Source: Arachis hypogaea
Taxonomy: Eukaryota; Streptophyta; Magnoliopsida; Fabales; Fabaceae
DNA length: 64,000 nucleotides
NCBI RefSeq assembly: GCF_003086295.3
Contig: NC_092051.1
Span: forward strand, 82,406,445-82,470,444
Direction of reading: 5' to 3'
The translations under genes were made by a program, and so were the position numbers. The notes below the pieces were generated by a model, which saw only the letters and a program-made list of their open reading frames with translations, ran no database searches and was not told the DNA's origin. Positions 2,603-54,536 of the stretch are shown here, piece by piece. Within the stretch, counting starts at the first letter, position 1; each line of letters opens with the position of its first letter.

Positions 2603-2650
2603 CATGGGTTGCCTCCCATGAAGCGCTTCTTTATCGTCACTAGCTTGACG
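2603..2650 (-). other. Conserved three-part stem-loop cluster, copy in element A
   Basis: On the minus strand, in order: CGTCA-AGCTAG-TGACG (2650-2635), the palindrome AAGCGCTT (2628-2621), and CATGGG-AGGCAA-CCCATG (2620-2603). The first stem overlaps the stop codon of the gag-protease frame (TAG at 2642-2640). Matching clusters lie at 35370-35415, 43395-43442 and 54489-54536. Paired positions here are changed on both sides relative to those copies (C-G for T-A, A-T for T-A, C-G for G-C), which supports an RNA fold. Role unknown. Confidence 0.7.
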
Positions 2651-5498
2651 TTTTTCCCTCATCAGGGTGGTTAGTAGTGCTTAAAGTCCTCCCCTCTTGC
2701 TGTGGACTTATATCATTGATTGGATCAATGATCTCCACATGTTCCACGGAAAGAACTCTGTTGATAGTGAAGACCTTGGGTAACTGAGATGGTACAGTAG
2801 GGAGATTAGGGGGAATATCTGGGAAGTAAGCTAAGACAACTCTATCCCCTGGAGAGAAGTCTTCCGTAGGGATCTTCTTGTTCCTCCACTTCCTTGGTAC
2901 CTTCTTCTTTGTTTCTTTTGAGGTTGCCATCCCCTTGGTGACCTCTTTTTCTAAAGGGGTTGTGATGCTTTCTTTACCTGCCTCTAAAGGTTCAGGTTCC
3001 TCCAATTTTTCCTTGAGCTGTGGCAATTACTGTTTTTCGTGTTTATCAATTAAGGGGATCTCAGAACGAACTGGCTGTGCTTCAATGCTTGTCTCCTCCT
3101 TCAGTGTCTCATTATCATTTGTGCTTAGTTCCTTGTCCTCTTGATCTATTTCTTGTGAGAGTTTGAAAACATTGAAGCTGAGTCGTTCATCATGGATTCT
3201 CAATATTAGCTCCCCTTTCTCTACATCGATAAGTGCTCTGGCCGTAGCTAGGAATGGTCTTCCCAATATGATTGGATGAGTGTGACTTTCTTCCATGTCC
3301 AGGATGACAAAGTCTATTGGGAGAAAGTATTTCCCATCCTTTAGCAACACATTTTCCACCACTCCTATTGCTTGCTTTTGAGTTTTGTCAGCCAGTCTGA
3401 TGATTACATCTGTGGGCATTATCTCATTGATCTGCAGCCTCTTCACCAGGGATAATGGCAGTAAGTTGATGCTGGCCCCCAAATCACATAGTGCTCTATC
3501 GAACATAGTTTCACCTATGGCACAAGGGATGTGAAAACTCCCTGGGTCTCTTCTTTTTGTAGGCAACTCAGGTTGAATAAGGGCACTACATTCCTTGTTC
3601 ATCACTATAGTCTGGCCTCCTTTGAGTGAGCTTTTCCTGGGAAAAAGTTCCTTCATATACTTGATGAATGCAGGCATTTGTTGAATTGCCTTGATAAATG
3701 GTATATTTACATGCAGAGATGCAAACAAGTCTAGGAACCTTGAGTATATTCTCTTTCCCACAGCACCATTGAGCAGTTGAGGGAAGGGTGCATAGAGCTT
3801 CAGCAGCTCTTGTTGTGAGATTTCTAGTTCTTGGTGATCTCTATCCTCCTCCTTTGTTGAGTTGTCTTCAGGTTGTTCGAAAAGTATGCCTTGCTTGTCT
3901 TCAGTCTCTTGATCACTTGTAATGACCATTTTGCAATCTTCCCATCTTACTTTCTTTGCTTCTCCTTTGGGGTTTTTCTCCGTGTCACTTGCGAAGCTAT
4001 AAGTAGGTTTGGGAATCTTCTCAGCTAAATATCCCACCTGGAATTTCAGCTTCCTAATGGTCTCTCCCTGGTTCTTAATATTGGCTCGCACCTCCTCTTT
4101 GAACACCTTATTTTCTTAAATCTCTTGGCATATTCCTTCAAGTAAGGCTTCAATCTTAGAGAGCTTGTCATCAATTGATGGGTGATTCGGAGCAGATGTG
4201 CTGTTTTGGTTTTGATAAGCATGTGGAGAAGTGTTGTTGTGGGGGTGTTGAGATGTCCTCTGTGTGAATTGCGGGTGAGCTGCATTGTTGTTGGAGTTGT
4301 AACGTCTCTGGTCTTGGTTTTGATCTTGCTCACTTCCCCACCCAAAGTTTGGGTGGTTTCTCCATCCAGGGTTGTAGGTCTTGGAGTATGGATCATAGTT
4401 TTTCCTTGGTGAATTCCCAATGTAGTTGGCTTGCTCCTGACTACCCTCTGCTTCTTCATTCACTCCTTCTTGGGTTGTTGATGAAGTTGAGATTGCTGCT
4501 ACTTGGTTCATCTCCATCTACTTGGTGAGGTCAGCCAGCTGCTGGGTAATGAGCTTGTTTTGGGCCAACAGAGCATCTACATTGTTTAGCTCCAGTACTC
4601 CTCTTGTGTTCCCTCTTTCGGAAGCATAGAAGTAGTCGTTCTCTGCTACTGTTTCAATAACATCTATGGCTTCCTCAATAGTCTTCTTCTTGTTCAAAGA
4701 TCCTCCGGATGAATGGTCTATGGCCTTCTTTGACTCATAAGAGAGCCCTTCGTAGAAAATGTGCAGCTGCACCCATTCATTGAACATCTCTGGTGGGCAC
4801 CTCCTTGTTAGGTCTTTAAACCTCTCCCATGCTTTATATAGAGTCTCACCATCTTGTTGCCTGAAAGTTTGGACCTCAGCTCTCAACCTATTGATTCGTT
4901 GAGGAGGATAAAATCTTGCTAAGAATTTGTTTACCACGTCTTCCCAAGTTGTCAAGCTTTCCCTTGGGAAAGATTCCAGCCACTTGGCTACCTTGTCCCT
5001 GAGTGAGAATGGAAATAAGAGCAGTCTATAGGCATCAGGATGAACACCATTAGACTTCAATGGGTCACATATTCTCAGGAAGGTAGTCAAATGTTGATTA
5101 AGATCTTCTTGAACACCTCCTCCAAACGAACAGTTGTTCTGAACAAGGGTGATGAGCTGTGGTTTAAGTTCAAAGTTGTTGGCATGGATTGTTGGCTTTT
5201 GGATGCTACTTCCACAATTGCCTGGGTTTGGATTGATGTAAGAGCCCAAAACTCTTCTATCCTCCCTAGCATGATTTGCTCCACCTCCTCTCCCATGGTT
5301 GTGATCCTCTTCTTCATGATGGTTTTCCATGTTATCTTCCATGTTTGGTTCAAAGAATTCCTCTTCTTCCTCAGCACCAACCACTTTCTTTCCTCTTGCC
5401 TCCCTCCTTAATCTAAGGAAGGTCCTCTCAGGTTTAGAATCGAAGGAAGTTGAAGCCCCGCTTCTTCTCCCTGTCATACAACCATCAAGTGCAAGCAA
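2640..5498 (-). pseudogene. gag-pro: gag-protease frame of element A, three in-frame stops
   Basis: A single frame of about 953 codons from 5498 to 2640 is broken only by nonsense codons at 4518-4520 (TAG), 4116-4118 (TAA) and 3027-3029 (TAA). The first 326 residues include a retrotransposon Gag capsid-type domain (about residues 145-285, with LLLFPFSLRDKVAKWLESFP and LARFYPPQ). The following 133 residues are Asn/Gln/Tyr-rich, with no CCHC knuckle seen. From 4106 there is a coiled coil (FKEEVRANIKNQGETIRKL), then a retropepsin-like aspartic protease with active site CDLGASINLLPLS and flap-side motif ILGRPFLATARALIDVEKGE. No RT follows. CAG-to-TAG and CAA-to-TAA transitions would explain every break. 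Confidence 0.85.
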
Positions 5499-5745
5499 GA
5501 AAAGATAGGTGCAGAGAGCATTTTTGTCAGAATTACTGTTAGTTGTGGGTGATGCAATATATCAAACAGTTAGTGGGTTAGCAAACAGAATTAAAAATAA
5601 CAAAGAAAAACAAAAGAGTAGAGGGGGAAGGGAAGAAGTTTAGCTAAAACAGAAAGTAAATCACTCAAACAGAAAATGAAATTCACAAAATAAAAATGCT
5701 CAATCTAGTGATCTTCCAATTTAATCATTGTTGATGCACAATCAA

Positions 5746-13549: not shown

Positions 13550-16500
13550 TGTAACACCCTACCATACAGAGTCTTATGCTTAAGTCATAATTCAGAGATG
13601 GCAAGGTATTACGACCTCTAAAACCAAAATTTAGTACGTTTAGTAGTATGAATAATTGATTATAACTAGGAGCCTTTATAGAAAAAGGGGTAAACAAAAA
13701 CCGTAACTCGAAAGCGCAACACTCCGATCGATAACGTAACGAACAGGGATAAGCTAACGCGAGATCATATATATACAAAGGAGTGTCAAAAACAGGAATA
13801 TCAAGACTCAAAATCCGGTCGCGAAGATAACTGGCCTGAGCATAGCAATATATACATATGATAAAATAAGGGAAACCCCAAAGGGACACAAATACAGAAA
13901 ACCTATTCTCCAAAAATCACCTCTAGAAGGAGTCATCACAGTTTGTATTATTTAATGGAGATAAAAGTATCTAAACAAGATATATAAACCAAAACAGAGC
14001 CCCGAGAACAAAGATCTTCGCTAATCCAGAAGTCTCCACCATGCCTCAACGAGAAGCCTCGCGTCCTGCATCTGAAAACCACAAAATCCGCATGGGTGAG
14101 AACCAGAGGTCCTCAGCATGGTAACAGCTTCCACATATATAATACATAATAATAGAGGAAAGCCGAAGGCAATCCTAGAACTTCCTTAAGATAAAATCAA
14201 AGCTTATAAACAAGCTAAACCATAAGTGGCAACTGTCTAAAGATTCTTCAGTCTAACTAATACTTTCCTTTCCAATTCCTTCAGACCTCCCAACCACCAG
14301 CAGGAGTATAATATAGCAAACACAGTTATATCAGACAAGAGATTTACAAATAGGAACAGATAAGGCATTTAGACAATTAGCAAGTAATATGCAGTCAAAT
14401 AGGCAATCTCAAACAATTCATGTAGTATGCTTATGATGCATGCCTGTCCCTAGTGGCTGATGATATCATCTGTCGGTTATAGAGCCAACCCGACAAGTCC
14501 TGGTAGCTAACCATTGGACTGTCCCTCTGTCGTGCATCCCCAACTCGAGTTATACTCATCATAAACTTGATCATAATCATGATCCATATCCATCACCCTT
14601 ACTGGTGAATATTTATCCATCACCATCACTGGTGAATATTTATGGGGGCGAGCTCATCCGGGCCTTTCACAGTGCCCGGCCACACTTACGACATTGGGTT
14701 AACAGAGCTTCGAGTCTCAACCCGGAGCACATGGTGGCTAGCCATTGCTACTACCCAGGGAAACCCTCATCTCCAATGGTGGAAGTGCAAACATTCACAA
14801 TTCATTCAATAGCATATATGCATTTATACTTAGCCATAATCATGGCTCCGCCGTAACACGGCAATAATCTAGCCATCCGGCTCACGGTTAAATCCATAAC
14901 CGGCCAATTCATTAACAATTACGGACCCTCGGCCCATGGCATAACAAGCACTTCCACCGCCATTCTCCGCATCTCACATAATCATCTTTGATCCTCAATG
15001 ATCATTCATTTTTCCCTTGCTTCACTCGCAAGTTACCACATTCACTAGCTCCTTATCTCATAGCTAGGCATATCATAATGATTCAAGACATAAGTGGTGA
15101 GATCAGAGGCTTAGAAGTATGAAATTTGGCTTTTAAAACTCAAAAATCAACTTTGGGATGAAAACAGGTCCACGCGTACGCGCACTCCACGCGCACGCGT
15201 GGATGATGCTTTCTCGAAGAACGGCGCATACGCGCCAAGTGCGCCTATGCGCGAGGGGTCATTCTGCTAAAAATTTTCTAAGTTAAAAGCTGCAGAATTC
15301 ACAGATTCAACCCCCAATCTTCCGACGGTCATAACTCTCTCATTTTAAATCATTTTTCACCCGTTCTTCGAACGGCATGGACATCCCGGATCCAATTTCA
15401 TTTCTAAACAGATTTGGCACAAATCAAAGATCCGTAGTCCAAGTTATGTCCCGTCAAAGTATGCCCAAAAACCATATTTTTATTCAAAACCACAAAGTGC
15501 CATTTTCAAAACAAGCCACTTTCAACTCTTTTCAAAATCAATTAAAACATGCCAATTTCATCCCTTTTCTTTGAAATCAATCAAAGTGTACCAAATTCAA
15601 CAACAAGCCATCCTCAACTCACGCATTGACATTTTACCAAAATTCTCAAAACTACCTCCAACCATTTTAACACTTCTCAATCAAAAGGCCAAAGGATAAA
15701 CACAATATTATGTCATACATCCTTCTCATCCCAATTTCTAACAATATCAATTTCCAATCAACCATCATTATACATAATCATCATACTCACCAACAATATG
15801 GCACCACCCATCAATTCAACCTCAATCATTCATCAAGCATATATCACAACATGCATTTTCTCACATATCACACAATCAAGGCATCAATATTCATAATCAC
15901 ACATATGATCACATCATATATCTCAACCATTCCACAACATCATCAATTCAATGCCTATCTTAGGGCCTCTAGCCTAAGTATTTCCTACCACATTACATAT
16001 TAGATACGGGAAACCGAAACCATACCTTAGCCGATTTCCCAAGCTCAACTGGAGCACTTCCAAACCACTTGTCCACAAGCTCTCAAGGTATCAACACCTC
16101 CAAGAACAGATTTTATCACACAAAACCCTCTTCCAAGCTTTCCAAAATCACCAATCAAGCTCCAATATTCACATATACACAACCTAAGCCACAATCATCA
16201 TACCCATACACAACATCTCAATACCCAAACATCATAGAACAACAAATCACACTAGGGTTGAGAATCTTACCACACCCAAGATCCAAGGAGACAAGATTAA
16301 CCTTCTCCTTCAAGAGAGTTGGGTCCTATAACATCAAAGAACCCAAAATCTTAACATTTTTGCTCATGAAACTCGAAATCAAGGGCTGGAATTTCGAACA
16401 GTAAAACGTGGCTTACCTCAAGATTGATTGTATGGGTTTTGTAGAGCTGTCCGCGGTGAACGCGTGGCCGCAAACGGAGCGGCAATCGGAGCTCTAGATC

Positions 16501-16841
16501 AAAAGTTATGGTGGTTTGAAGATCAAGTGAGAGAAGGAAGTTGAGAGAGTGTTCTTCCCCCTTCCATCTCAATTTTCAGCGTGTTTTGGTGTTGTGTGAG
16601 GAGAGAGAGTGCTGAAAACTAGGGTTTTGGTTTAGTTATGTTGGGCCAAGGGCCCACTTTGGGTCCGGTTGGACTGGTTTGGCCCGTTCGGTCCAATCTT
16701 GGTCCGATTTCTATAAAATTAGTACCGAAATTCTCGTCTCAATTTCCTCTATCATATTAAGCCATAAAAATAATATTTTTGACTTTCTAGAATAAATTAT
16801 CATTTATGGGTTAATTAGGCGTTAATTAACCGGGTCTTACA
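13550..16841 (-). repeat. 3' LTR of element C (left copy)
   Basis: 3292 bp, TGTAACACCC...GTCTTACA. It contains the palindromic CCACGCGCACGCGTGG at 15187-15202 and a tandem pair TCACCCTTACTGGTGAATATTTA / TCACCATCACTGGTGAATATTTA-type near 14594-14643. Open frames inside it recur in the other LTR and show no protein family. Confidence 0.93.
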
Positions 16842-16883
16842 TTCTACCCACCTAATTGGGAATTTTGCCCACAAAATTCAAAT

Positions 16884-18098: not shown

Positions 18099-18236
18099 CT
18101 TAGTACTTCCCGGGTGAATGGAGAATCCACTTTTGTGTGCCTCCTTTAAGATATCTTACCTCAAAGTGCCAACATCCGGCACAATGATCCTACCCTTGAA
18201 TCTCCATAACCCGTCTTTTTCTTCCGACACTCTCCA

Positions 18237-18869: not shown

Positions 18870-19267
18870 TCAGGAGTCCAAACAAACGGAGTGTCTTTGC
18901 GAGTTAACTTTGTCAACGGTAAAGCTAATTGCGAAAAGCCTTTGATGAACCTTCGGTAATAGCCAGCTAAACCCAGAAAACTCCTTATCTCAGTTACTGT
19001 GGTTGGTTGCTTCCAACCCATCACAGCTTCTACCTTAGTTGGATCTACGGCTATTCCCTTCTTACTCACCACGTGACCCAAAAACTTCACCTCATCCTTC
19101 CAAAACTCACACTTAGACAGTTTCACATAGAGTTTCTTCTCCTTTAAAATCTGCAACACGGTCCTCAAGTGTTCTGCATGCTCTTCTTCAATCTTGGAGT
19201 AAATCAGTATGTCGTCAATGAAGACAACAACGAATTTATCCAGAAACGGACGGAATACTCTATTCAT
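18833..19267 (-). pseudogene. Reverse transcriptase, C-terminal half, element C
   Basis: 144 residues with the catalytic [10 protein letters not shown] (YxDD-type, residues 16-25), followed by the thumb region [21 protein letters not shown] and [12 protein letters not shown]. It shares a frame with the segment to its right, split by TAA at 19268-19270 just after FMD, where related elements have a Leu codon. Its own end comes from the frameshift near 18850. Confidence 0.9.
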
Positions 19268-21142: not shown

Positions 21143-21148
21143 CGGGCC

Positions 21149-21553: not shown

Positions 21554-21556
21554 TAA

Positions 21557-25738: not shown

Positions 25739-25788
25739 GTCCAACTTAAGGACTTCAACTAAAAGTGCTAGGTGGGAGACAAACCACC
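25739..25788 (+). other. Diverged stem-loop cluster of element B after its ORF
   Basis: GTCC-AACTTAA-GGAC (25739-25753) and GGTGG-GAGACAAA-CCACC (25771-25788) start 18 bases after the ORF stop at 25719-25721. Order, spacing and loop style match the clusters in A, E, FIDEL-like and G, although the arms differ. I take it as a distant version. Confidence 0.5.
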
Positions 25789-35118: not shown

Positions 35119-35357
35119 CTCCAGAGTTTTTGAACCTGGCCAGAAAATTTTACTTTTCATTTCCAGGCTCAAGCTCTTCCCTGATAAGCTCAAGTCACAA
35201 TGGACAGGACCATTTGTGGTCACAAGAGTGTCACCTTATGGTCATGTGGAACATCAAAGCAGATACTCCGACAAAAAATTCACAGTCAATGGCCAAAGAG
35301 TGAAGTACTGCCTAGGAGATGAAATTGAGCAAGGGATCTCCACCCTCCTACTGACAT
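35119..35357 (+). pseudogene. Integrase C-terminal end of element E
   Basis: Resumes the frame interrupted at 30978: SRVFEPGQKILLFISRLKLF, then PDKLKSQWTGPFVVTRVSPYGHVE. The GPF module is the usual SH3-like C-terminal part of Ty3-gypsy integrase. No chromodomain follows. The end of the frame runs into the stem-loop cluster at 35370. Confidence 0.85.
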
Positions 35358-35369
35358 GACATCAGTAAA

Positions 35370-35415
35370 TGTCAGGCTAATGACAATAAAGAAACGCTTG
35401 GTGGGAGGCAACCCA
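35370..35415 (+). other. Conserved stem-loop cluster, copy in element E
   Basis: TGTCA-GGCTAA-TGACA (35370-35385), AAACGCTT (35392-35399, imperfect palindrome) and TGGG-AGGCAA-CCCA (35402-35415). It lies at the end of the integrase frame, whereas the A, FIDEL-like and G copies follow protease or Gag: the location is at the end of the upstream ORF whichever gene that is. Confidence 0.7.
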
Positions 35416-36181
35416 GCCATATATTTCTTTACTATGATTTCTACTCCCTTCCTTTTTACTTTAGTTATTCGAGTTCGATTTCATATGATGATATTTTCTA
35501 TTTTAGTTCATAGTCTTTCTCGTTTTACTAACATTTGTGATCATGCGCAGTACTTAGAATTGAAACAGGGACGCAAGGCAGGAAAATAGAACACCTCGAA
35601 GGATGCCCCTTGCTAGCGTTGAACGCCAGAACTGGCCTTCAGCGCCAAAAAGAGGGTGGAGACTAGGACGTTTAACGTCCCAAGGGAGTCAGTCAAGGCA
35701 ATTTTTGTGTCCCCTATGGGCATTCAACGCCGGTAGTGGGCGTTGAATGCCAGCACTTAAAAAAAATGTTTTTGATCCCCCCTCTGGCTTTCAACGCCAG
35801 GTTTGGGCGTTGAATGCCCAAAGGGGGGAGGAAAGGGATTTGAATTTTCAAAAAGGGGAGATAGACTTGACTTTTCAAACCAAATCTTTTCCAATATTAT
35901 CTTTTAAATCCATATCTTTCCAATTCATATCTTTTTCAAACTAAATCTATTTTTTTAAAATTAAATTTCTTCAATTCAAATCTTTTCAAACCAAATCTTT
36001 TCAAATCATATATTTTCAAACTATATCTTTTTTAAACAATATCTTTCCACCTCGTAACCGAGTTCCCACCCACCCACAACTATAAATCCACTATCACCCC
36101 TACCTCCTTTCTCACGCCCTTCCCCACTCCTCTATCATCCCCGCACGCTGCTTCCTCTCCCTCTGTTTTCTTCTCTCTTTG
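35416..36181 (+). other. Spacer of element E with GGCGTT dyads and CT-rich tract
   Basis: No gene. GCGTTGAACGCCAG-type dyads lie at about 35616-35815 and CAAATCTTTTC-type low complexity at about 35880-36050. The same order (dyads, T/C-rich tract, hairpin, third ORF) is seen in the FIDEL-like element at 43443-44352. Confidence 0.65.
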
Positions 36182-39148: not shown

Positions 39149-39154
39149 AAGTTT

Positions 39155-39172
39155 TTGGCGCCGTTATCGGGG
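39155..39172 (+). other. Primer binding site of the FIDEL-like element (tRNA-Asp)
   Basis: TGGCGCCGTTATCGGGGA, two mismatches from the complement of the tRNA-Asp 3' end, six bases after the LTR. Confidence 0.85.
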
Positions 39173-41044: not shown

Positions 41045-42258
41045 ATGAGTAGGAGCAAGGACAAGAACATTCTTATTGAAGCAGATCCAGAACCTGAAAG
41101 GACTCTAAAAGAAAACTAAGAGAAGCTAAATTACAACAATCCAGAGATAACCTTACAGAAATTTTTGAACAGGAAGAGGAGATGGCAGCCGAAAATAATA
41201 ATAATGCAAGGAGAATGCTTGGTGACTTTACTGCACCTAATTCCAATTTACATGAAAGAAGCATCTCCATTCCTGCCATTGGAGCAAACAATTTTGAGCT
41301 GAAACCTCAATTAGTTTCTCTGATGTAGCAGAACTGCAAGTTTCATGGACTTCCATCTGAAGATCTTTTTCAGTTCTTAACTGAATTCTTGTAGATATGT
41401 GATACTGTTAAGACTAATGGAGTAGATCATGAAGTCTACAGGCTCATGCTTTTCCCTTTTGCTGTAAGAGACAGAGCTAGAGTATGGTTGGACTCTCAAC
41501 CTAAGGATAGCCTGAACTCTTGGGATAAGCTGGTCAAGGCTTTCTTAGCCAAGTTCCTTCCTCCTCAAAAGCTGAGTAAGCTTAGAGTGGATGTTCAGAC
41601 CTTTAGACAGAAAGAAGGTGAATCCCTCTATGAAGCTTGGGAGAGATACAAAGGACTGACCAAAAAGTGTCCTTCTGACATGCTTTCAGAATGGACCATC
41701 CTGGATATATTCTATGATGGTCTGTCTGAACTAGCTAAGATGCCATTGGATACTTCTGCAGGTGGATCCATTCACCTAAAGAAAATGCCTGCAGAAGCTC
41801 AAGAACTCATTGACATGGTTGCTAATAACCAGTTCATGTACACTTCTGAGAGGAATCCTGTGAGTAATGGGACGCTTATGAAGAAGGGAGTTCTTGAAAT
41901 TGATACTCTGAATGCCATATTGGCTCAGAACAAAATATTGACTCAGCAAGTCAATATGATTTCTCAGAGTCTGAATGGAATGCAAGCTGCATCCAACAGT
42001 ACTCAAGAGGCATCTTCTGAAGAAGAAGCTTATGATCCTGAAAACCCTGCAATAGCAGAGGTAAATTATATGGGTGAACCTTATGGAAACACCTATAACC
42101 CATCATGGAGAAATCATCCAAATTTCTCATGGAAGGATCAAAAGCCTCAACAAGGCTTTAATAATGGTGGAAGAAATAGGTTTAACAATAGTAAACCTTT
42201 ACCATCATCCACTCAGCAACAGACAGAGAACTCTGAACAAAATACCTCTAATTTTTAG
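41045..42258 (+). pseudogene. gag: gag of the FIDEL-like element, frameshift and stops
   Basis: Starts MSRSKDKNILIEADPEPERT at 41045, then shifts frame near 41115. In the main frame, TAG codons at 41326-41328 and 41392-41394 interrupt it, and an open stretch runs from 41446 to 42258. The capsid-type domain is clear: MLFPFAVRDRARVWLDSQP, FLAKFLPPQKLSKLR, TFRQKEGESLYEAWERYK, followed by NHPNFSWKDQ and an Asn/Gln-rich tail without CCHC. Closely related in style to gag of A at 4518-5498. Confidence 0.85.
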
Positions 42259-42290
42259 CAAACTTAGTCTCTGATCTATCTAAGGCCACT

Positions 42291-43376
42291 GTGAGTTTCA
42301 TGAATAAAACAAGGTCATCCATTAGAAATTTGGAGGCACAAGTGGGCCAGCTGAGTAAAAGGATCACTGAAATCCCTCCTAGTACTCTCCCAAGCAATAC
42401 AGAAGAAAATCCAAAAGGAGAGTGCAAGGCCATTGAATTAATCACCATGGCCGAACCTGTGAAGGAAGGAGAGGACGTGAATCCCAAGGAGGAAGACCTC
42501 CTGGGACGTCCAGTGATCAATAAGGAGCTTCCCTTTGAGGAACCAAAGGAATCTGAGACTCATCTAGAGACCATAGAGATTCCATTAAACCTCCTTATGC
42601 CATTCATGAGCTCTGATGAGTATTCCTCTTCTGAAGAGAATGAGGATATTACTGAAGAGTAAGCTGCCAAGTTTCTTGGTGCAATCATGAAGCTGAATGC
42701 GAAATTATTTGGTATTGAAACTTGGGAAGATGAACCTCCCTTGTTCACCAATGAACTAAGTGATCTGGATCAACTGAGATTACCTCAGAAGAAACAGGAC
42801 CCTGGAAAGTTCTTAATACCTTGTACCATAGGCACCATGACCTTTGAGAAGGCTCTGTGTGACCTTGGTTCAGGAATAAACCTCATGCCCCTCTCTGTAA
42901 TAGAGAAACTGGGAATCTATGGGGTGCAAACCACTAAAATCTCATTAGAGATGGTAGACAATTCAAGAAAACAGGCTTATGGACAAGTAGAGGACGTGTT
43001 AGTAAAGGTTGAAGGCCTTTACATCCCTGCTGATTTCATAGTCCTAGATACTGGGAAGGATGAGGATGAATTCATCATCCTTGGAAGACCCTTCGTAGCC
43101 ACAGCAAGAGCTGTGATTGATGTGGACAGAGGAGAATTGATCCTTCAATTAAATGAGGACAACCTTGTGTTTAAAACTCAAGGATCTCTCTCTGTACCCA
43201 TGGAGAGGAAGCACAGTAAGCTTCTCTCATTGCAGAGTCAACCAGAGCCCCCACAGTCAAACTTTAAGTTTGGTGTTGGGAGGCCACAACCAAACTCTAA
43301 GTTTGGTGTTGAACTCCCATATACAAACTCTAAGTTTGGTGTTGGGAAGTCTCAACAATGCTCTGAACATCTGTGA
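42291..43376 (+). pseudogene. Protease region of the FIDEL-like element
   Basis: One frame from 42291 with a TAA at 42660-42662. The first part holds the Gag-tail coiled coil (RSSIRNLEAQVGQLSKRITE); the second (from 42687) an aspartic protease with ALCDLGSGINLMPLS and IILGRPFVATARAVIDVDRGE. DLGSG replaces the DLGAS seen in A. The end carries three repeats of NSKFGVG-type residues, which come from three in-frame copies of AAGTTTGGTGT (43266, 43299, 43332). It stops at TGA 43374-43376, just before the stem-loop cluster. Confidence 0.85.
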
Positions 43377-43394
43377 GGCTCCATGAGAGCCCAC

Positions 43395-43442
43395 TGTCAA
43401 GCTATTGACAATTAAAGAAGCGCTTGTTGGGAGGCAACCCAA
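43395..43442 (+). other. Conserved stem-loop cluster, copy in the FIDEL-like element
   Basis: TGTCA-AGCTAT-TGACA (43395-43410), AAGCGCTT (43418-43425), and TTGGG-AGGCAA-CCCAA (43427-43442) with a possible sixth G-U pair outside. Closest to the copies in G and E. Confidence 0.75.
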
Positions 43443-44279
43443 TTTTTATTTATCTAATTTCTATTTTTCTTGTTCTTTCATGTTTTATTAGGTTCATGAT
43501 CATGTGGAGTCACAAAATAAATATAAAAATTGAAAACGGAATCAAAAACAGCAGAAGAAAAATCACACCCTGGAGGAGGATCTCACTGGCGTTCAAACGC
43601 CAGTAAGAAGCAGCTGGCTGGCGTTCAACGCTAGAACAGAGCATGGTTCTGGCGCTGAACGCCCAAAATGGGCAGCATCTGGGTGTTTGAACGCCAGAAT
43701 TGCACCCTGGAGAAGAGCTGGCGCTGAACGCCCAGAACAAGCATGGTTCTGGCGTTCAACGCCAGAAATGGGCAAAAATGGGCGTTCAACACCCAGAACA
43801 AGCACCAATCTGGCGCTGAATGCCCAGAGTTGTGTGCAAGGGCATTTTTCATGCCCAATTTGGTGCAAGGTTGTAAATCCTTGAACACCTCAGGATCTGT
43901 GGACCCCACAGGATCCCTACCTACCTCCACTCACTTCTTCTCACCCCTCTTTCACACAATCCTATAAACACTCTTCCCTAAAACTCTTTACCAATCACCT
44001 CAATCTCTCTTCCCTATCACCACTTCACCACTCACATCCATCCACTCTTCCCCATAAACCTACCTCATAAACTCCACCTACCTTCAAATTCAAAATCAAT
44101 TTCCCACCCAAAACCCACCCTTATGGCCGAACCTTACCCCCCCTCCCTTCCCTATATATCGTCCTCCATTCTTCCTCATTTTCACACAACACAACCCTCT
44201 CTTCTCTTCTTGGCCGAATACACCACCCCCCTCCTCTCCTCCATATTTTCTTCTTCTTCTTCATCTATTCTTTCTTCTC
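43443..44279 (+). other. Spacer of the FIDEL-like element with GGCGTT palindrome array
   Basis: No gene. Between about 43585 and 43835 there are eight or more half or full dyads around GGCGTTCAACGCCAG (for example 43751-43763), alternating GGCGTTCAAC and GGCGCTGAACGCCCA forms. A C/T-rich stretch (43920-44278) follows and ends at the internal hairpin. Confidence 0.7.
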
Positions 44280-44314
44280 TTGCTCGAGGGCGAGCAACAT
44301 TCTAAGTTTGGTGT
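44280..44314 (+). other. Internal hairpin plus AAGTTTGGTGT, FIDEL-like element
   Basis: TTGCTCG-AGGG-CGAGCAA (44280-44297) then CATTCTAAGTTTGGTGTGG, 39 bases before the third-ORF ATG. Same design as the 3' hairpin at 46603-46622, with C-G in place of a T-A pair. Confidence 0.65.
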
Positions 44315-44352
44315 GGTAAAAGCATAAGCTTTTTGTTTTTCCATTACCATTG

Positions 44353-45493
44353 ATGGCACCTAAGACCGGAGAATCCTCTAGAAAAGGGAAAGGGAAGACA
44401 AAAGCTTCCACCTCCGAGTCATGGGAGATGGAAAAATTCATCTCCAAAGCTCATCAAGACCACTTCTATGATGTTGTGGCCAAGAAGAAGGTGATCCCTG
44501 AGGTCCCTTTCAAGCTCAAGAAGAATGAGTATCCGGAGATCCGACATGAAATCCAAAAAAGAGGTTGGGAAGTTCTAACAAAACCCATCCAACAAGTCGG
44601 CATCCTAATGGTTCAAGAGTTCTATGCCAATGCATGGATCACTAGGAACCATGATCAAAGTAAGAACCCGAACCCAAAGAATTATCTCACCGTGGTTCGG
44701 GGGAAATACTTAGATTTTAGTCCGAAAAATGTGAGGTTGGCGTTTAACTTGCCTATGATGCAAGGAGATGCACGCCCCTACACTAGAAGGGTCAACTTTA
44801 ATCAAAAGTTGGACCAAGTCCTCATGGACATATGTGTGGAAGGAGCTCAATGGAAGATTGACTCCAAAGGCAAGCCGGTTCAACTAAGAAGACTGGACCT
44901 CAAGCCTGTAGCTAGAGGATGGTTAGAGTTCATACAATGCTCCATCATCCCCACTAGCAACCGATCCGAAGTTACTGTGGATCGGGCTTCATAGCATCAT
45001 GATTGGAGAGGAAGTAGAAGTTCATGAAGTCATCTCCCTTGAACTCTACAAAATAGCCGAAAAGTCCTCCCCCATGGCAAGGCTAGCTTTTCTTCATCTT
45101 ATTTGCCATCTCTGTTACTCATCTGGGGCTTTCATAGAAGGAGACATTCCCATTGAGGAAGAGAAGCCCATCACTAAGAAAAGGATGGAGCAAGCAAGAG
45201 AGCCCATTCATGGAGCTCAAGAGGCGCATGAAGCTCATCACCATGAGATCCCGGAGATGCCTCCAATGCATTTCCCTCCACAAAACTATTGGGAGCAAAT
45301 CAACACCTCCCTAGGAGAATTAAGTTCCAACATGGGACAACTAAGGGTGGAACATCAAGAGCACTCCATCATCCTTCATGAAATTAGAGAAGATCAAAAA
45401 GCAATGAGGGAGGAGCAACAAAGACAAGGAAGAGACATAGAAGAGCTCAAGGACATCATTGGTTCCTCAAGAAGGAAACGCCACCATCACTAA
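44353..45493 (+). pseudogene. Third ORF of the FIDEL-like element (putative plant transposon protein domain), frameshifted
   Basis: ATG at 44353 (MAPKTGESSRKGKGKTKAST). About 214 codons run to TAG 44992-44994; the frame resumes shifted at 44999 and runs to 45493. Conserved features: EYPEIRHEIQKRGWEVLTKP, LMVQEFYANAW, VVRGKYLDFSP, RLDLKPVARGWLEFIQCSI, PTSNRSEVTVDRA, then EEVEVHEVISLELYKIAEKS. The C-terminal part is Glu/Gln-rich and probably coiled coil, ending RRKRHHH. The ORF occupies the env position but has no signal peptide or transmembrane segment. Basic N-terminus and coil suggest nucleic-acid or protein binding; function is unknown. Confidence 0.82.
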
Positions 45494-46602
45494 GGTGGAC
45501 TCATTCCTTGTTCTTACACTCTCTGTTTTTTGTTTTCTATGTTAAGTACTTATCTATGTTTGTGTCTTATTACATGATCATTAGTAGTTAGTAACTATGT
45601 CTTAAAGTTATGAATGTCCTATGAATCCATCACCTCTCTTAAATGAAAACTGTTTTAATTCAAAAGAACAAGAAGTACATAAGTTTCGAACTTATCCTTG
45701 AACTTAGTTTAATTATATTGATGTGGTGACAATGCTTCTTGTTTTCTGAATGTATGCTTGAACAGTGCATATGTCTTTTGAAGTTATTGTTTAAGAATGT
45801 TAAATATGTTGGCTCTTGAAAGAATGATGACAAGGAGACATGTTATTTGATAATCTGAAAAATCATGCAAATGATTCTTGAAGCAAGAAAAAGTAGCAAA
45901 GAACAAAGCTTGCAGAAAAAAAAATAGGCGAAAGAAAAAAAAATAGAAAGAAAAAGAAAAAGCAAGCAGAAAAAGCCAAAAGCTCTTAAAACCAAGAGGC
46001 AAGAGCAAAAAGCCAATAACCCTTAAAACCAAAAGGCAAGGACAAATAAAAAGGATCCCAAGGCTTTGAGCATCAGTGGATAGGAGGGCCTAAAGGAATA
46101 AAATCCTGGTCTAAGCGGCTAAACCAAGTTGTCCCTAACCATGTGCTTGTGGCGTAAAGGTGTCAAGTGAAAACTTGAGACTGAGCGGTTAAAGTCAAGG
46201 TCCAAAGCAAAAAAAGAGTGTGCTTAAGAACCCTGGACACCTCTAATTGGGGACTTTAACAAAGCTGAGTCATAATCTGAAAAGGTTCACCCAATCATGT
46301 GTCTGTGGCATTTATGTATCCGGTGGTAATACTGGAAAACAAAGTGCTTAGGGCCACGGCCAAGACTCATAAAATAGCTGTGTTCAAGAATCATCATACT
46401 GAACTAGGAGAATCAATAACACTATCTGAACTCTGAGTTCCTATAGAAGCCAATCATTCTGAACTTCAATGGATAAAGTGAGATGCCAAAACTATTCAAG
46501 AGGCAAAAAGCTACAAGTCCCGCTCATCTGATTAGAGCTATGTTTCATTGATAGTTTGGAATTTATAGTATATTCTTTTATTTTTATCCTATTTGATTTT
46601 CA
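45494..46602 (+). other. 3' region of the FIDEL-like element
   Basis: No gene. An A/G-rich tract at 45885-46030 contains repeated AAAACCAA(A/G)AGGCAAG units. From 46060, sequence matches the 3' region of E (36870-37140). Confidence 0.6.
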
Positions 46603-46640
46603 GTTGCTTGGGGACAAGCAACAATTTAAGTTTGGTGTTG
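46603..46640 (+). other. 3' hairpin and polypurine-type tract, FIDEL-like element
   Basis: GTTGCTTG-GGGA-CAAGCAAC (46603-46622, perfect 8-bp stem) then AATTTAAGTTTGGTGTTG abutting the LTR. This tract is G/T-rich, unlike the purine-only PPT of B, so the exact primer is uncertain. Confidence 0.75.
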
Positions 46641-48318
46641 TGATGAGCGGATAATTTATACGCTTTTTGGCATTGTTTTTAGTTTGTTTTTAGTAGAATC
46701 TAGTTACTTTTAGGGATGTTTTCATTAGTTTTTATGTTAAATTCACATTTCTGGACTTTACTATGAGTTTGTGTATTTTTCTGTGATTTCAGGTATTTTC
46801 TGGCTGAAATTGAGAGACTTGAGCAAAAATCAGATTCAGAGGTTGAAGAAGGACTGCTGATGCTGTTGGATTCTGACCTCCCTGCACTCAAAGTGGATTT
46901 TCTGGCGCTACAGAACTCAAAATGGCGCGCTTCCAATTGCGTTGGAAATTAGACATCCAGGGCTTTCCAGCAATGTATAATAGTCCATAGTTTGAACGAG
47001 TTTAGACGACGTAAAAGGGCGTTGAACGCCAGTTCTACGCTGCTGTCTGGAGTTAAACGCCAGAAACAAGTCACAAACCAGAGTTGAACGCCAGAAATAC
47101 GTTACAACCTGGCGTTCAACTCCAGAAAGAGCCTCTGCACGTGTAACACTCAAGCTCAGCCCAAGCACACACCAAGTGGGCCCCGGAAGTGGATTTATGC
47201 ATCATTTACTTACTTCTGTAAACCCTAGTAGCTAGTTTATTATAAATAGGACTTTTTACTATTGTATTAGACATCTTTGGATCATCCTGGATTGTATTTT
47301 GATCCTGTGATCTCGTTTTGGGGGCTGGCCATTCGGCCATGCCTGGACCTTTCACTTATGTATTTTCAACGGTAGAGTTTCTACACTCCATAGATTAAGG
47401 TGTGGAGCTCTGCTGTTCCTCAAAGATTAATGCAAAGTACTACTGTTTTTCTATTCAATTCAACTTATTCTGCTTCTAAGATATTCATTCGCACTTCAAC
47501 CTGAATGTGATGAACATGACAATCATCATCATTCCCCCACGAACGCGTGCCTGACAACCACTTCCGTTCAACCTTAGATTGAATGAGTATCTCTTGGATC
47601 TCTTAATCAGAATCTTCGTGGTATAAGCTAGATTGATGGCGGCATTAATGAGAGTCCAGAAAGTCTAAACCTTGTCTGTGGTATTCCGAGTAGGACTCTG
47701 GGATTGAATGACTGTGACGAACTTCAAACTCGCGAGTGAATCCTATTCCAGTATGATCGAGAACATCAGATGATTAGCCGTGCTGTGACAGAGCATTTGG
47801 ACCATTTTCACAAGAGGATAGGATGCAGTCATTAGCAAGGGTGACGCCTCCAGACGATTAGCCATGCAGTGACAGCGCACCGGACCATTTTCCAGAGAGG
47901 ATCAAAAGTAGCCATTGACAACGGTGATGTCCTTACATAAAGCCAGCCATAGAAAGGAGTAAGACTGATTGGATGAAGACAGCAGGAAAGCAGAGGTTTA
48001 GAGGGACAAAAGCATCTCCATGAATTTATCTAAAATTCTCACCAAGGATTTACATAAGTATTTCTATCCCTATTTTATTATTAATATTCGAAAACTCTAT
48101 AACCATTCTATATCCGCCTGACTGAGATTTACAAGGTGACCATAGCTTGCTTCATACCAACAATCTCCGTGGGATCGACCCTTACTCGCGTAAGGTTTAT
48201 TACTTGGACGACCCAGTGCACTTGCTGGTTAGCTGTGCGAAGTTGTGATAAAAAGTTGAGATTACAATTGAGCGTACCATGTTGATGGCGCCATTGATGA
48301 TCACAATTTTGTGCACCA
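46641..48318 (+). repeat. 3' LTR of the FIDEL-like element
   Basis: 1678 bp, TGATGAGCGGATAA...GTGCACCA, followed by TSD ACAAG. TATA box at 47241-47249; palindrome GGCGTTGAACGCC at 47018-47030. Confidence 0.92.
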
Positions 48319-48345
48319 ACAAGCAACAATTTAAGTTTGGTGTTG

Positions 48346-50019: not shown

Positions 50020-50530
50020 TGATAAACCCCAATTTTAAGGTTTATCTTGTGTTAAAATGAGTAGATTCTATTAACTTATTTCACATTTATTCAATTAAAC
50101 AGCATGGTTTTGTGAATTTCTCCTAATTTGCACTTAAGATTCAAAACATGCTTTTTAGGCCCTTAATTTGCTAAATTTAATTCACTTTAATTCCACTCGA
50201 TGCCTTGATGGGTTTGTTTATTGATTTCAGGTTTAGGAGGTATGAATTGGACCAGAGAAGTGAAGGAAAAGTATATAAAGTGGAGAATTCATGAAGAAAT
50301 GAAGTTTTGGAAATCCACCAATTGCGCGTACGCGTGACCTGAAATTTCACCAAGTGGCGCAGACGCATAACCTTGCACGTACGCATGACACGAAGCATGC
50401 GACTCACTTAAAGAAAACGTAGCTGGCAATTTCTGGACCTCTTCAAGCCCAAATCCAACTCATTTCTGAAGTATTTTAGGCCAAATTCAAAAACGAATAA
50501 AAGAGGGAGCAATTAATATAGCTTAGGAAC
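50020..50530 (+). repeat. 3' LTR of element F, first piece
   Basis: Starts TGATAAACCCCAATTTTAAGG and is cut by G at 50531. It contains GCGCGTACGCGTGACC and CGTACGCATGAC dyads near 50324-50395. Continues at 58318-58348 and 59782. Confidence 0.7.
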
Positions 50531-52921
50531 TGATGCGCATAAACTTGTTATGCTACGATTTAGGAAATTGCACGATCGGCAAAATTCCTTCCGGCAAGTG
50601 CACCGGTTATCGTCAAGTAAAAACTCACAATAGAGTGAGGTCGAATCCCACAAGGATTGGTTGAGTGAGCAATTCGGATTAGAAGTATGTTCTAGTTGAG
50701 CGGAATCAAGATTTAGATGAGAATTGCGGAATGTAAAATTGCATGAATTAAAGAGCGAGAAGCTAAATTGCTGAAATTAAAAGGGATGGGGGTGATTGCA
50801 TGAATTTAATTGCAGAATGTAAAGAGAAAGTGGTAAATCAGAAATGGGGAGTTCATTGGGTGTTAGGAGATATTGAGATCTCCGAATCAAAACAACTTTT
50901 ATCCCTTCCTCAACCAATGCATTCATTGAATTTTGCTTGGCAATCTTATATGATTGGATCCCAATCCCTTGGCTCACCAATTCTCCCTAAAAACAAACAA
51001 ATTCCCAATCCCTTGGTTTAAATGTTCATAAGAAGAGATGATGCTCGATCACTGATTATACCACACAGTTTCATGAACCACAATTTGGTAGGATTACATG
51101 TCACAATATCCATCCAAACCCCAATCCAATTCACTGTGAGAAAGCTTCTCTAGCATGAATCCTCCATTCCTTTCCCAAGGTTTCGAAGGATTCCAATTAT
51201 GGGTAGTTTCTTTCCCAAGACAACTACCCAATGGAATTAGATCGAGAAGCTTTCTAACAAAATTCAAGAGAAAAGATTGAAGAAGAAGATAAAACTATTA
51301 TTGATTCATTGAATTACAATAGAGCTCCCTAACCCAATGAAAGGGGTTTAGTGAGTCATAGCTCTGAATTCAATTACAAAACTAAAAGAAAATGATTCAA
51401 AGTTCTCCGTGTGTCTAAACTTCCCCCTCAGGGGCTGGATTCCCCCTCAATCCCCCGTCTCTCAAATGCAGAAACTAAGGCCTTTAAATAGGCTCCCTAA
51501 ATTACAAAATGAAAATGAAATTCAAAGCAAATTACAATCAAATGAAAATAAACTATTCTAGATGATTCTTGTGGCCTTGATTTGGTGTTGTTGATGGGCC
51601 TTGCTTGCTTGAAGGGTAGAGTGACATAATTGATCCAAAAAGGATAATGATCCATTAAACTACACTCAAACGTTGCACCCCCCTTTCTTGAGTCGTCACT
51701 TTGTTCTCTTGTCAACCTTGCCAATTTGATGCCAAATATAGACTATTATACCTCGTTGGAAAGCTATGGATGTCAGCTTTCTAACGCAACTGGAAGCACC
51801 TCAATTGGATCTCTATAGCTCAAGTTATGCTTGATTGAAGGTGACAAGGTTGCTGGTTGGTTTGACAGCGTTTAAGCCAACGTTTAAGTCACTTAAACGT
51901 GCTCGAAAATGCCAATTTTGGGAGCTCAGTTGCATTGTCCACCCCATACTTCTATACATCGTTGGAAAGCTCTGGATGTCTACTTTCCAATGCAACTGGA
52001 AGCGCATCATTTGGAGTTCTACAACTCGAGTTATACTCCATGGAAGGTGAAGAGGTCAGCTGGCCTGATTGCATGTTGGTACTATGCTCTTCTATGCACA
52101 TTACGGGGCTGTTTTCTCCCTCAATTTTTAGTATCCACCATGCATGCCATATATGCTTGGAAAGCTCTAGATGTCTTCTTTCCAATGCATTTTGAATCAC
52201 CTCATTTGGAGTTTTGTAGCTCAAGTTATTTATGTTTGAAGAAGGCATGGTCAAGCTGTTCCATATAACACGTTTAAGCTCCAGTTTAAGCTTAAACTGG
52301 AGCTTAAACGCTGGCACTCCCTGGAGGCACAAGCTCGAGCACGTTTAAGCTTCAGTTTAAGGTCAAACTGAAGCTTAAACGTGGAAATGAGAAAGCAACC
52401 CTGGAGGAGAAAAAATAGTCGAACACGTTTAAGCTCCAGTTTAAGGTTAAACTGGAGCTTAAACGTGGAAATGCTCCCTGGTGCATTTCTAATTCTGGCG
52501 TTTAACTTCCAGTTTAAGGTTAAACTGGAGGTTAAACGCCACTTTCAGCATTTCCTTAGCTCTCATGGTTTTGGCGTTTAAGCTCCAGTTTAAGCTTAAA
52601 CTGGAACTTAAACTCCACATGTGATATTCAAGCTTCCTTTATTGATTTTGTTGCTTCCTTGCCTAGCCTCTTCTTCCCTGAAATCATCCAAACAACTGCA
52701 TCAAAGTCTTGCAAAATTTCATGAGAAATCTTTCATTCATAGCATTCAAGGAATATAACTAAAAACTCATGGAATTTGCATCAAAATCTTCATGTTTGAA
52801 TGATTTAAGACAAGCATGACTATTTGGCCCAAATGATTACTTAAGGCTCAAGAAAATGCATAAAACAACTAAAAATAACAGAAAAATGCTAGTGAAACTA
52901 GCCTAAGATGCCTTGGCATCA
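50531..52921 (-). repeat. 3' LTR of element G
   Basis: 2391 bp, TGATGCGCATAAAC...CCTTGGCATCA. Holds the palindrome array 52265-52620 and a minus-strand TATTTAAAGG near 51481. Related by its ends to the LTR of A. Confidence 0.93.
52265..52620. repeat. Array of five long palindromes in LTR of G
   Basis: 52271-52310 is a perfect 40-bp palindrome with half site CGTTTAAGCTCCAGTTTAAG. Four more follow at 52340-52383, 52425-52468, about 52498-52543 and 52574-52617, with short loops (AAGGTC, AAGGTTA) and arms changed in parallel (CTCC/GGAG to TTC/GAA; CGTTTAA to GGCGTTTAA). Duplicated at 57660-58010. Confidence 0.85.
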
Positions 52922-54488
52922 CAACACCAAACTTAATACTTGCTTGTCCCTAAGCAAGTCCTGAGTTACTTGAGAAGAAAGTATGAAACAGAAAGCAATT
53001 ACATTGGCTATATTAGTAAGCACTTGAAGTTCATTAGAAGGGTTTTATGCAGAAAGTTGCAGCATCACTTTTTCATTCTTATCAAGTAAGATTATCACTT
53101 TTTCATTGCATCCATCAAACACTGCTATGGCCCCTTGTTATTCTTATGTCCTTGGCACTTTTCTCTTCTTTGTTTTTCTTTTCCTTAGAGCTCCTTTGCT
53201 CCTTGTTTGCTCAGTGTCATGTGTTGCACAAGCCTTTGGCATTTTCTTTTTCTTATCAGTGCACTACACATATCCACTACAGGCATTTTAGTTCACATTT
53301 CTTCTTGAGACATTGGTGCCCAGCACCTCTTTGTGTGACTAAATGTTTTGTATTTAGGTTGCTCTTGATAATGGACTTTTGGTTGATAATCCCGGGTTAG
53401 TTAACCCAAGTTACCAAGTGTTGAAACACTCCTCAGAACCTATTCATCCAAGCATATCCTTAATACATAAACACTACAGGCATTTGTCTCAGAAGTTCAA
53501 ACCATTGGTGCCTAGCTTATTTTCTCAATTTTTTTTTTGCTTTTTTTTTTTTGGTTGCCCTTTTTCAGTGGCTTTTTCTTCTTCTTTTTCTTTCTTTTTC
53601 ATGGCCAAAGACATTTATTCATCAAGATCCATAGACAGTTTTCAAATTCTACACAAAAAATGATAATTCTACACTCAATTTCTAGTGATCTGACTAAACA
53701 ATCAAGCATGCATACCACCACTTAATTCTACTTGATTTGTCACTAATTGAGCCAAGTTACTTTTGTTCAAACTTTTCTTTTATTTTTGGAAACAGAACAA
53801 GCATGGCAAGCATACATTTAAGCAAGTGAAGTTTATCCAGACACTTAGACTATCACTTATTTGGAAATTAAACAAACAGACAAACAAAAACTGCAATGAC
53901 TCAAACTTAAAGCAGGGGTGCATGCAAACTTCCAATATCAGCAATTCAAAGTACAAGCAATTAAGTGACAATACAACCTTTTAGCATCTTCTTTGTTGTT
54001 CATCATCCTTCCTAGCCTCGGTGTTCTCTTTGATGATGATGTATATTCCTTCCATGAGATTGATTGTCTTCCTGCAAAGCTATTAGAAGTTGCTTGTTCC
54101 CCAAGCACTTTGAGAATTGGTTAGCATGCATGTATGTTTGTAGGCCTCTGAACTTAGATTGGTGTGTGAACACCAAACTTAGTTCCTTGCCATATGCAGC
54201 AATTTGGATCATATGCAGAAAACCTCATGTGCTTTTATTAAGAAAATAACTATGAACTAGAAATTAAACTATTGTTTAAGTAGTTTCCCTGATTGGTTGG
54301 AGCTAGTGACTAGTCATGCTGAGGTAGAAATGTGCTTTTAATGAAGTTTTTGGTAGAACACCAAACTTAGAATCTCACATTCACCCTTGAATTGTTTTGG
54401 TGTGCAACACCAAACTTAGCTCCTTGCAATACAGATAAATCTACTTAACTCTTTTATTGAAATAACTACAAAAGAAAAACTACCTTTG
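52922..54488 (-). other. 3' non-coding region of element G
   Basis: No gene. It starts (minus-strand 3' end) with CAACACCAAACTTAATA and the hairpin ACTTGCTT-GTCCCT-AAGCAAGT (52938-52959). Copies of AAGTTTGGTGT (minus strand) lie at 52924-52934, 54170-54180, 54358-54368 and 54407-54417. Two are inside hairpins: TTTGGTGT-GCA-ACACCAAA (54396-54414) and TTGGTGT-GTGA-ACACCAA (54159-54176). A T-rich low-complexity tract lies at 53527-53610. Confidence 0.65.
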
Positions 54489-54536
54489 GTTGGGTTGCCT
54501 CCCAACAAACGCTCGTTTACTGTCATTAGCTTGACA
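54489..54536 (-). other. Conserved stem-loop cluster, copy in element G
   Basis: Minus strand: TGTCA-AGCTAA-TGACA (54536-54521), overlapping the ORF stop (TAA 54528-54526); AACG-AG-CGTT (54517-54508); GTTGGG-AGGCAA-CCCAAC (54506-54489). The middle dyad has different arms from AAGCGCTT but is still self-complementary. Confidence 0.75.

Follow-up and report, generated by a model that had tools for sequence, protein, structure and literature searches.

A covarying two-hairpin RNA motif behind the gag/pol stop codon of Athila-like retrotransposons in peanut, and its possible role in RNA survival

Rous sarcoma virus carries a stability element directly downstream of its gag stop codon (PMC5580461). 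Turnip crinkle virus has two parts that are each reported to confer resistance to nonsense-mediated decay (NMD) in a plant, a readthrough structure just downstream of a stop codon and an unstructured region of 51 nt (PMC6277124). Among plant long terminal repeat (LTR) retrotransposons, the linker of Athila4 and Calypso is described as holding an extra polypurine tract (PPT) and a predicted env splice acceptor (Wright and Voytas 2002, as cited in PMC2829016), and Athila-type elements make up about one third of the genome of one species (PMC10881000). The full-length RNAs of such elements have long 3' untranslated regions (3'UTRs), which should draw NMD. Here we analyze a motif from a 64,000-nt stretch of peanut DNA (Arachis hypogaea, contig NC_092051.1, positions 82406445-82470444; the whole stretch is called the window), where it lies directly downstream of gag/pol stop codons of retrotransposons. 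It is almost certain that the motif is a conserved RNA secondary structure made of two hairpins, SL1 and SL3. By analogy with the viral systems, this structure of Athila-type elements may act in cis to shield the full-length RNA from NMD or from related termination-coupled decay, a reading to which we assign a probability of roughly 0.4.

Architecture and compensatory changes

The motif consists of the SL1 hairpin, a linker with GCGCTT and the SL3 hairpin with an AGGCAA loop, about 50 nt in total. The window contains four exact occurrences of TGGGAGGCAACCCA, at the sites in elements A, E, F (FIDEL-like) and G. On the minus strand, the motif of element A is at 2603..2650 (SL1 2650-2635, linker 2634-2621, SL3 2620-2603 with arms CATGGG/CCCATG; 80 bits by covariance model) and that of element G at 54489..54536 (SL1 54536-54521, linker 54520-54507, SL3 54506-54489 with GTTGGG/CCCAAC; 66.5 bits). 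On the plus strand, it is found in element E at 35370..35417 (SL1 35370-35385, linker 35386-35399, SL3 35400-35417 with GGTGGG/CCCAGC; 67.4 bits) and in element F at 43395..43443 (SL1 43395-43410, linker 43411-43425 with an extra T, SL3 43426-43443 with GTTGGG/CCCAAT; 77.2 bits). An earlier note on this DNA had placed SL1 and SL3 at these four sites, and its coordinates are right. It had also listed two changes in A, a C-G pair for U-A at the foot of SL1 and CATGGG/CCCATG for GTTGGG/CCCAAC in SL3, and both compensations are real. For E it had described a shorter SL3; the arms there have one mismatch.

All four sites are in the training set of the covariance model. The diverged counterpart in element B (25739..25788, plus strand; SL1 GTCC/GGAC, SL3 GGTGG/CCACC), which the earlier note had also proposed, was kept out. 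It was recovered at 25729-25790 with 20.8 bits (E 3.5e-6), and the next match has E 0.068. B is a true diverged relative.

Allowing up to three mismatches, TGGGAGGCAACCCA has 12 matches in the window, compared with 4.17 by shuffling (maximum of 100 shuffles, 9). In the 2.557 Gb parent assembly, 48,368 places match TAAANNNGCGCTTNNNNNNAGGCAA, a pattern in which neither SL3 arm is specified, and none match its reversed control. The B-class pattern AGTGCTNNGTGGGAGRCAA has 15,319 matches, again with a control of 0; six B-class copies, chosen for variety among the first 100 of these places, all match model R1 at 25.8-41.2 bits. Only these counts are genome-wide. The copies read individually were among the first listed places, mostly on contig C1 with a few on C2, plus the window and one plant-like assembly, and are not a random sample. 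The 105 hits reduce to 81 distinct ones, of which 80 (B omitted) form alignment A2. Alignment A3 holds 22 diverse, hand-picked copies; B is off by one column in SL1 there and is undercounted. We dropped L159, a chance match without SL1 (still counted in the downstream base-composition figures), and L226 gave no alignment row. Loci L156-L158 duplicate L126, L134 and L135, L187 and L188 duplicate L127 and L128, and L221 and L225 duplicate L162 and L147.

Covariation was judged by shuffles, slid registers and family-level permutations. In A2 (11 pairs, 880 cells), 92.0% of cells are paired compared with 82.4% after shuffling, 92 cells are altered on both sides compared with 30.8, and the covariation score is 0.304 compared with 0.142; none of 500 shuffles was as high on any of these measures. 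Slid registers gave 2-18 two-sided cells. In A3 there are 34 two-sided cells compared with 13.6 after shuffling (0 of 500), and 0-8 in slid registers. Kinship of the copies inflates such counts, so we took one copy per family, with families set by the 150-nt flanks. Based on 10 downstream-flank clusters, 1 of 2000 permutations was as good, in both draws, and based on 9 upstream-flank clusters, 0 of 2000. (A first, loose clustering joined 54 of the 58 copies and was discarded; some singletons of the final clustering may be decayed members of bigger families.)

With the SL3 arms left free (30 loci), GTTGGG stands opposite CCCAAT in 14 of 16 cases, CATGGG opposite CCCATG in 2 of 2, GTCGGG opposite CCCGAT in 3 of 3, ATTGGG opposite CCCAAT in 3 of 3, GCTGGG opposite CCCAGT or CCCAGC in 4 of 5, and ATTAGG opposite CCCAAT once. 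A search that forced a base other than T at the third SL3 position and left the 3' arm free returned 30 loci (3 repeats, 1 chance match): C is found in 27, with G opposite in 23 of these, and G in two, with an uncompensated A opposite. When the inner GGG/CCC was fixed and the three outer bases of the 3' arm were free, CATGGG was opposite CCCATG in 17 of 17 copies, and TTTGGG was opposite CCCAAT in 3 of 3, leaving a T-T mismatch at the outermost pair. L213 has a fully paired TATGGG/CCCATA. L207 and L209 have CTTGGG/CCCAAC with an outer C-C mismatch, and SL1 of L207 is lengthened by a C-G pair. At the inner SL1 pair, most peanut-type copies have A-U, whereas L231 and L232 have G-C and the B class has C-G.

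L231 and L232 probably come from another lineage. A scan of prokaryote genomes led to contig L124, which is part of the assembly for Candidatus Burkholderia humilis, a leaf-nodule symbiont. We read L124 as plant DNA because the contig carries a tnp2 transposase and a Ty3-type gag; its source is presumably the Psychotria (Rubiaceae) host. Contigs of this assembly look chimeric with bacterial sequence. Across 58 genomes of the symbiont's genus, this assembly among them, model R1 found three good copies, all in that assembly (53 bits for L124, 49.2 and 37.6 bits). Matches of 22.8 and 21.3 bits in genomes G029 and G035 were judged to be chance since the loci are G+C-rich (0.62), and L122 and L123 from the prokaryote scan are chance matches as well. 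L231 has SL1 GTCG/CGAC and SL3 CTTGGG/CTCAAG, L232 has SL1 CATCG/CGATG, and SL3 has one mismatch each in L124 and L232. The ORFs directly upstream of L124 and L231 gave no Pfam family. These three plant-like contig copies extend the SL1 compensation. Copies on viral contigs, among the matches listed, had no motif in the upstream bases checked.

Several measures weigh against this structure or are unremarkable. The six pairs with two-sided change in A2 were matched by 62 of 500 shuffles and its 15 further pair types by 397 of 500; in A3, two-sided change in 6 of 11 pairs was matched by 19 of 500 and the number of pair types by 421 of 500. Single-sequence folding of six copies is unexceptional (z of -0.24 to -1.88), and RNAalifold on A2 picked a different fold, with no covariation. 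In the GGTCCAGCTAAAGAC class SL1 is just 3 bp. G-U exceeds A-C overall (52 vs 34) only via the outermost SL3 pair; without it the counts are 15 and 33. We rejected G-U versus A-C as a test of strand for this reason; because the excess is limited to that pair, the sense strand is assigned from the way the motif is oriented relative to the ORFs.

The earlier note had placed a further dyad, SL2, between the hairpins, and this did not hold up. It is the palindrome AAGCGCTT, which leaves no space for a loop. The variants ACGCTT in E and GCGTTT in G are not compensated in place, and no covariation was found in either of the two registers counted. GCGCTT is conserved at the sequence level, partly because it was included in the search patterns. 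Two alternative pairings were also set aside. A pseudoknot between AGC of the SL1 loop and GCT of the linker is 98.3% paired, but both sides are near-fixed and it is uninformative. The RNAalifold alternative (linker GCTT with AGGC of the SL3 loop, and the SL1 loop with the linker) is conserved, with no two-sided change.

Position behind the stop codon and host elements

Position was scored in 60 rows (56 loci and the four window sites; 58 without repeats). Of 60 loci, 56 (54 of 57 once repeated places are removed) have a coding match of gag/pol type or G400 type upstream, G400 and A-type being labels for the putative frames that end at the motif in G and A; the copies are thus not at random places. 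The upstream ORF stops 9-18 nt ahead of SL1 in 46 of the 60 rows (44 of 58 without repeats), behind differing proteins. In protease-type rows the stop codon ends 18 nt ahead of SL1 in 19 of 25, in A-type rows 10 nt ahead in 11 of 16 and 9 nt in one, and in integrase-type rows 10-11 nt ahead in 15 of 16; the three G400-type rows have it at -8, +11 and +11 relative to SL1. Within the window, the TGA of an integrase-C-terminal-like frame in E (35357..35359, plus strand) is 10 nt ahead of SL1, and in F the TGA at 43374..43376 (plus strand) of the ORF at 42663-43376, protease-like with a Pfam match below the cut-off (E 0.00083), is 18 nt ahead; the row scoring, which assumes a linker without the extra T, gives 19 for F. 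The stops of A (TAG, 2640..2642, minus strand, by three-frame translation) and G (TAA of a 400-aa ORF, 54526..54528, minus strand) lie within the SL1 loop, each with an in-frame TGA next. FIDEL-family copies have a possible family-specific hairpin, GGCTC-CATGA-GAGCC by sequence, between stop codon and SL1.

That the upstream frame ends within SL1 in A and G, with SS* as its last codons, fits an explanation without any RNA structure, namely conservation of a protein end, recent recombination or chance. In A, E, F and G, however, SL3 is past the stop codon of the upstream frame, and linker indels in F and in the plant-like contig copies change the frame. Recombination finds some support in the GTCGGG class (L126, L134, L168), in which one motif variant and a similar downstream flank lie behind three upstream modules (A-type, integrase type and G400), and this suggests, as read from these sequences, that modules were exchanged at the motif. 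Recent recombination is not the whole explanation, because stems that differ in sequence yet remain paired are found in families whose flanks are unrelated. Two-sided changes hold with one copy per family and across lineages, and the pattern controls gave 0. We give almost no credence to an explanation without structure. The earlier note's proposal of nucleotide-level selection on an RNA structure, at one position in autonomous and non-autonomous elements, is borne out by compensation in SL1 and SL3 that beats the shuffle, slide and family controls. Of the two contrary outcomes it had named, copies at random places are not seen, and recent recombination accounts for the copies at most in part, with the exchange just described.

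The window is plant DNA dense in LTR retrotransposons. Based on self-comparison, F has an LTR pair at 37439-39150 and 46640-48319, G has one at 50528-52921 and 55918-58312 (99.7% alike), and next to B another element has inserted at 13550-24858, its LTRs 99.1% identical. The LTR at 37439-39150 seems to be common to E and F, and we infer an LTR-internal-LTR-internal-LTR arrangement across 36858-48319. Elements A and F share one order of parts: a gag ORF, an aspartyl-protease-like ORF, the motif and an ORF with PF20167. Element G has the 400-aa ORF, without a Pfam match, followed by the motif, and no sense ORF longer than 70 aa lies downstream of it.

At L227, where the stop codon is 11 nt ahead of SL1, a gag ORF is followed by one ORF with protease, reverse transcriptase (RT), RNase H and integrase. 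The Pfam order is gag, protease, RVT_1, RT_RNaseH, H2C2 and rve, with no extra RNase H at E <=0.01, and by domain order this one element fits the Athila lineage of Ty3/gypsy. Its gag and pol ORFs (L227:2729-7420) share a frame, with one stop codon between them. The host elements more generally are probably Athila-type Ty3/gypsy, a name drawn from their structure, downstream ORF and form of the primer-binding site (PBS). A TGGCGCCGTT-type sequence, PBS-like in its letters, lies a few bases past the LTR in A, G and F; for Diaspora and Calypso, the accessible text of PMC1142308 gives a PBS about 5 bp past the LTR, complementary to tRNA-Asp.

Copies of AAGTTTGGTGT are found at 46628, 52934(-), 43266, 43299, 43332, 44304, 54417(-), 54368(-), 54180(-), 2497(-) and 2415(-). 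In both F and G, one copy adjoins the 3' LTR, where a PPT would lie, and the others flank the motif. Such PPT-like copies near the motif and at the LTR would suit a signal for packaging, dimerisation or reverse transcription that Gag or RT recognises in the genomic RNA and through which non-autonomous elements could be mobilised in trans. So would the presence of the motif in elements of very unlike coding content (gag with a protease-like ORF, a 400-aa ORF, a complete gag-pol) and the self-complementarity of AAGCGCTT and AGCT. The palindrome is broken and uncompensated in E, L210, G and L209, which led us to reject it as a dimer site, and a place directly behind the last stop codon is unusual for such signals. 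We consider this explanation improbable.

The downstream stretch and possible functions

Behind SL3 come about 100 nt of RNA with little structure, U-rich over the first 50-75 nt. T accounts for 59% of the 25 nt next to SL3 and for 55% and 40% of the two bins that follow, after which A rises to as much as 47%. This stretch is A+T-rich in A (2513..2602, minus strand, ending in ATCATGCAG), U-rich with an AG in E (35418..35464, plus strand), and U-rich in F (43444..43491, plus strand, ending in TTTTATTAG/GTTCATG, where the slash marks the boundary) and in G (54466..54488, minus strand, ending in TTTTGTAG). Windows of 50 nt in the first 100 nt after SL3 have median folding energies of -2.2, -3.75 and -2.2 kcal/mol, whereas the 50 nt just ahead of the motif have -11.1 kcal/mol and windows at 156-306 nt have -13.6 to -16.7 kcal/mol. 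In 42 of 59 copies, GATCATG is present in the 150 nt that follow SL3 (shuffle mean 0.46); it forms a second conserved block 39-121 nt past SL3, often with AG next, as in L134, F and E.

Our preferred reading, protection from decay, starts from the full-length RNA as a gag-pol mRNA with a 3'UTR on the scale of kilobases. The hairpins would hold the space beside the terminating ribosome in a fixed shape, and the open U-rich stretch behind them would be left available to a protecting protein. As a result the full-length RNA could escape nonsense-mediated or related decay. Protection fits these elements because the motif lies behind whichever ORF is last, is kept without pol or a downstream ORF, and has an open stretch behind the structure. 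Its location directly downstream of the gag/pol stop codon is that of the Rous sarcoma virus stability element, and it is kept in G, which has no notable downstream ORF.

The same stretch resembles a 3' splice acceptor. The hairpins could instead be the 3'-terminal part of an intron and govern use of the acceptor for a subgenomic RNA of the PF20167 (env-like) ORF; in a variant of this explanation, hairpins present only in unspliced RNA could mark that RNA for export or packaging. With copies that are related and not independent, which counts against this explanation, the best 3' splice-site score within 150 nt after SL3 (58 copies) has a median of 8.8, compared with 3.7 in control windows and 6.3 in shuffles, and 64% of copies are above the 90th percentile of the controls. 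A pyrimidine tract and AG are present as sequence resemblance, and the U-rich then A-rich composition agrees with an acceptor. AG-type ends of the stretch are TTTTACAG/G in L147, TTTCTTTCAG/A in L209, TTTCTTTCTTAG/C in L231 and CTTCTGTTTAG/T in L232. Acceptors were predicted earlier for BAGY2 and for Athila env, according to the accessible passages of PMC2829016.

Further in its favor, a match to PF20167 or to the ORF following the motif in F is found within 1.5 kb downstream in 31 of 60 loci. The ORFs with PF20167 3' of the motif in the window are at 1067..1801 in A (minus strand, Pfam E 8.5e-39) and 44320..44994 in F (plus strand, Pfam E 1.2e-22). As a separate observation, the interval from the motif to the PF20167 ORF is rich in inverted repeats of the CTGGCGTT..AACGCCAG type, at about 43600-43850 and in the downstream flanks of L129 and L140.

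Against a splice acceptor, G keeps the motif without a notable downstream ORF, and the short leaders of A and G have no donor scoring at least 5.5 (the best nearby, 5.82 and 7.9, are in gag-side sequence). F has a candidate donor, TTG/GTAAGT at 39787, with a score of 8.44. A genome search with the exact junction pattern for this donor gave one match, an unspliced deletion copy, and no spliced retrocopy for that donor. The best AG is 23-108 nt after SL3 (quartiles 44 and 91.75), a loose distance compared with that to the stop codon. We hold protection from decay to be slightly likelier because the coupling to the stop codon is tight and that to the AG is loose; a splice acceptor as the motif's function is unlikely in our view, if a serious competitor.

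An RNA signal for translation of the next ORF, by internal entry or by termination-reinitiation, would agree with a motif that sits between two ORFs. The UGGGA of the motif may also resemble the 18S-complementary motif of caliciviruses. The PF20167 match begins 758-1274 nt past GCGCTT in the 29 loci that have it, however, the GTCGGG class is without UGGGA, and G again has no notable ORF to translate. We consider a translation signal very improbable.

Some observations sit poorly with protection from decay. In three of the 60 rows (window A, window G and L180) the stop codon is inside SL1, so that a terminating ribosome would open the hairpin, and in 11 more it falls outside the 9-18 nt range (-137 to -19, -8, -1 or +139). 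Low structure also recurs at 406 nt (-7.85 kcal/mol) and 506 nt (-0.6 kcal/mol). A good 3' splice-site-like AG, for which decay protection has no need, often closes the stretch. Protection and a splice acceptor could coexist. In a fuller account, which we consider unlikely, the motif is an undescribed structured RNA family that dates back far enough to occur in both a legume and another eudicot lineage and of which one crop genome holds tens of thousands of copies. It would act as a compact stop-codon insulator against host decay of the genomic RNA and would at the same time form the intronic side of a regulated acceptor.

Comparison with known systems

A covarying element behind the last gag/pol stop codon makes the survival of the RNA, or the origin of a subgenomic RNA, testable by reporter. 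The motif would help to annotate decayed elements that have no coding sequence, and it would join the few plant structured RNAs with clear covariation. Based on Rfam release 15 at the gathering score, the only match in the window is snoR71 at 41578-41685 (minus strand; 48.2 bits vs gathering 40), off the motif and antisense to the gag ORF of F; L209, L231, L232, L124 and L147 have none. GGGAGGCAACCCA and GCGCTTGTTGGGAGG have 0 occurrences in open papers. We found no description of the motif in the open literature on Athila, Calypso, env-like elements and FIDEL, including the accessible parts of PMC1142308, PMC2410132, PMC11963269, PMC7264820, PMC2829016, PMC3276544, PMC10881000, PMC6317226 and PMC12218528; it may be mentioned in Wright and Voytas 2002 or Vicient 2001. 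This suggests a control element that is undescribed so far. The siRNA854 site of Athila, as given in the accessible part of PMC3276544, is unrelated by sequence.

A survey of plant cis-acting RNA structures (PMC12218528) likewise searched by covariation. Its 16 candidates show modest covariation, and its main text is without 'transpos', 'gypsy' or AGGCAA. Sireviruses are also plant LTR retrotransposons with conserved, structured non-coding motifs, but they are Ty1/copia elements, and the motifs, likened here by description, are at the PPT/3' LTR junction (a PPT inverted repeat) or in the LTRs (accessible part of PMC2829016). The linker of Athila4 and Calypso is the same region, between pol and the env-like ORF, and PPT-like copies lie near the motif here as well; the citing passages of PMC2829016 mention the PPT and predicted acceptors, and no hairpins.

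The two viral systems named at the outset, again judged from the accessible parts of the papers, are the closest by position. The Rous sarcoma virus element shares the place behind the gag stop codon; it is 400 nt long and belongs to an animal retrovirus, whereas the motif here has two covarying hairpins and a linker in about 50 nt plus an open stretch, and a role in decay would be assigned to it by analogy. Turnip crinkle virus is a positive-strand RNA virus whose two parts sit behind different stop codons, and it is likened to the motif by layout, not by sequence. As in the peanut elements, a stop codon there is closely followed by a structured part, and a stretch with little structure is present.

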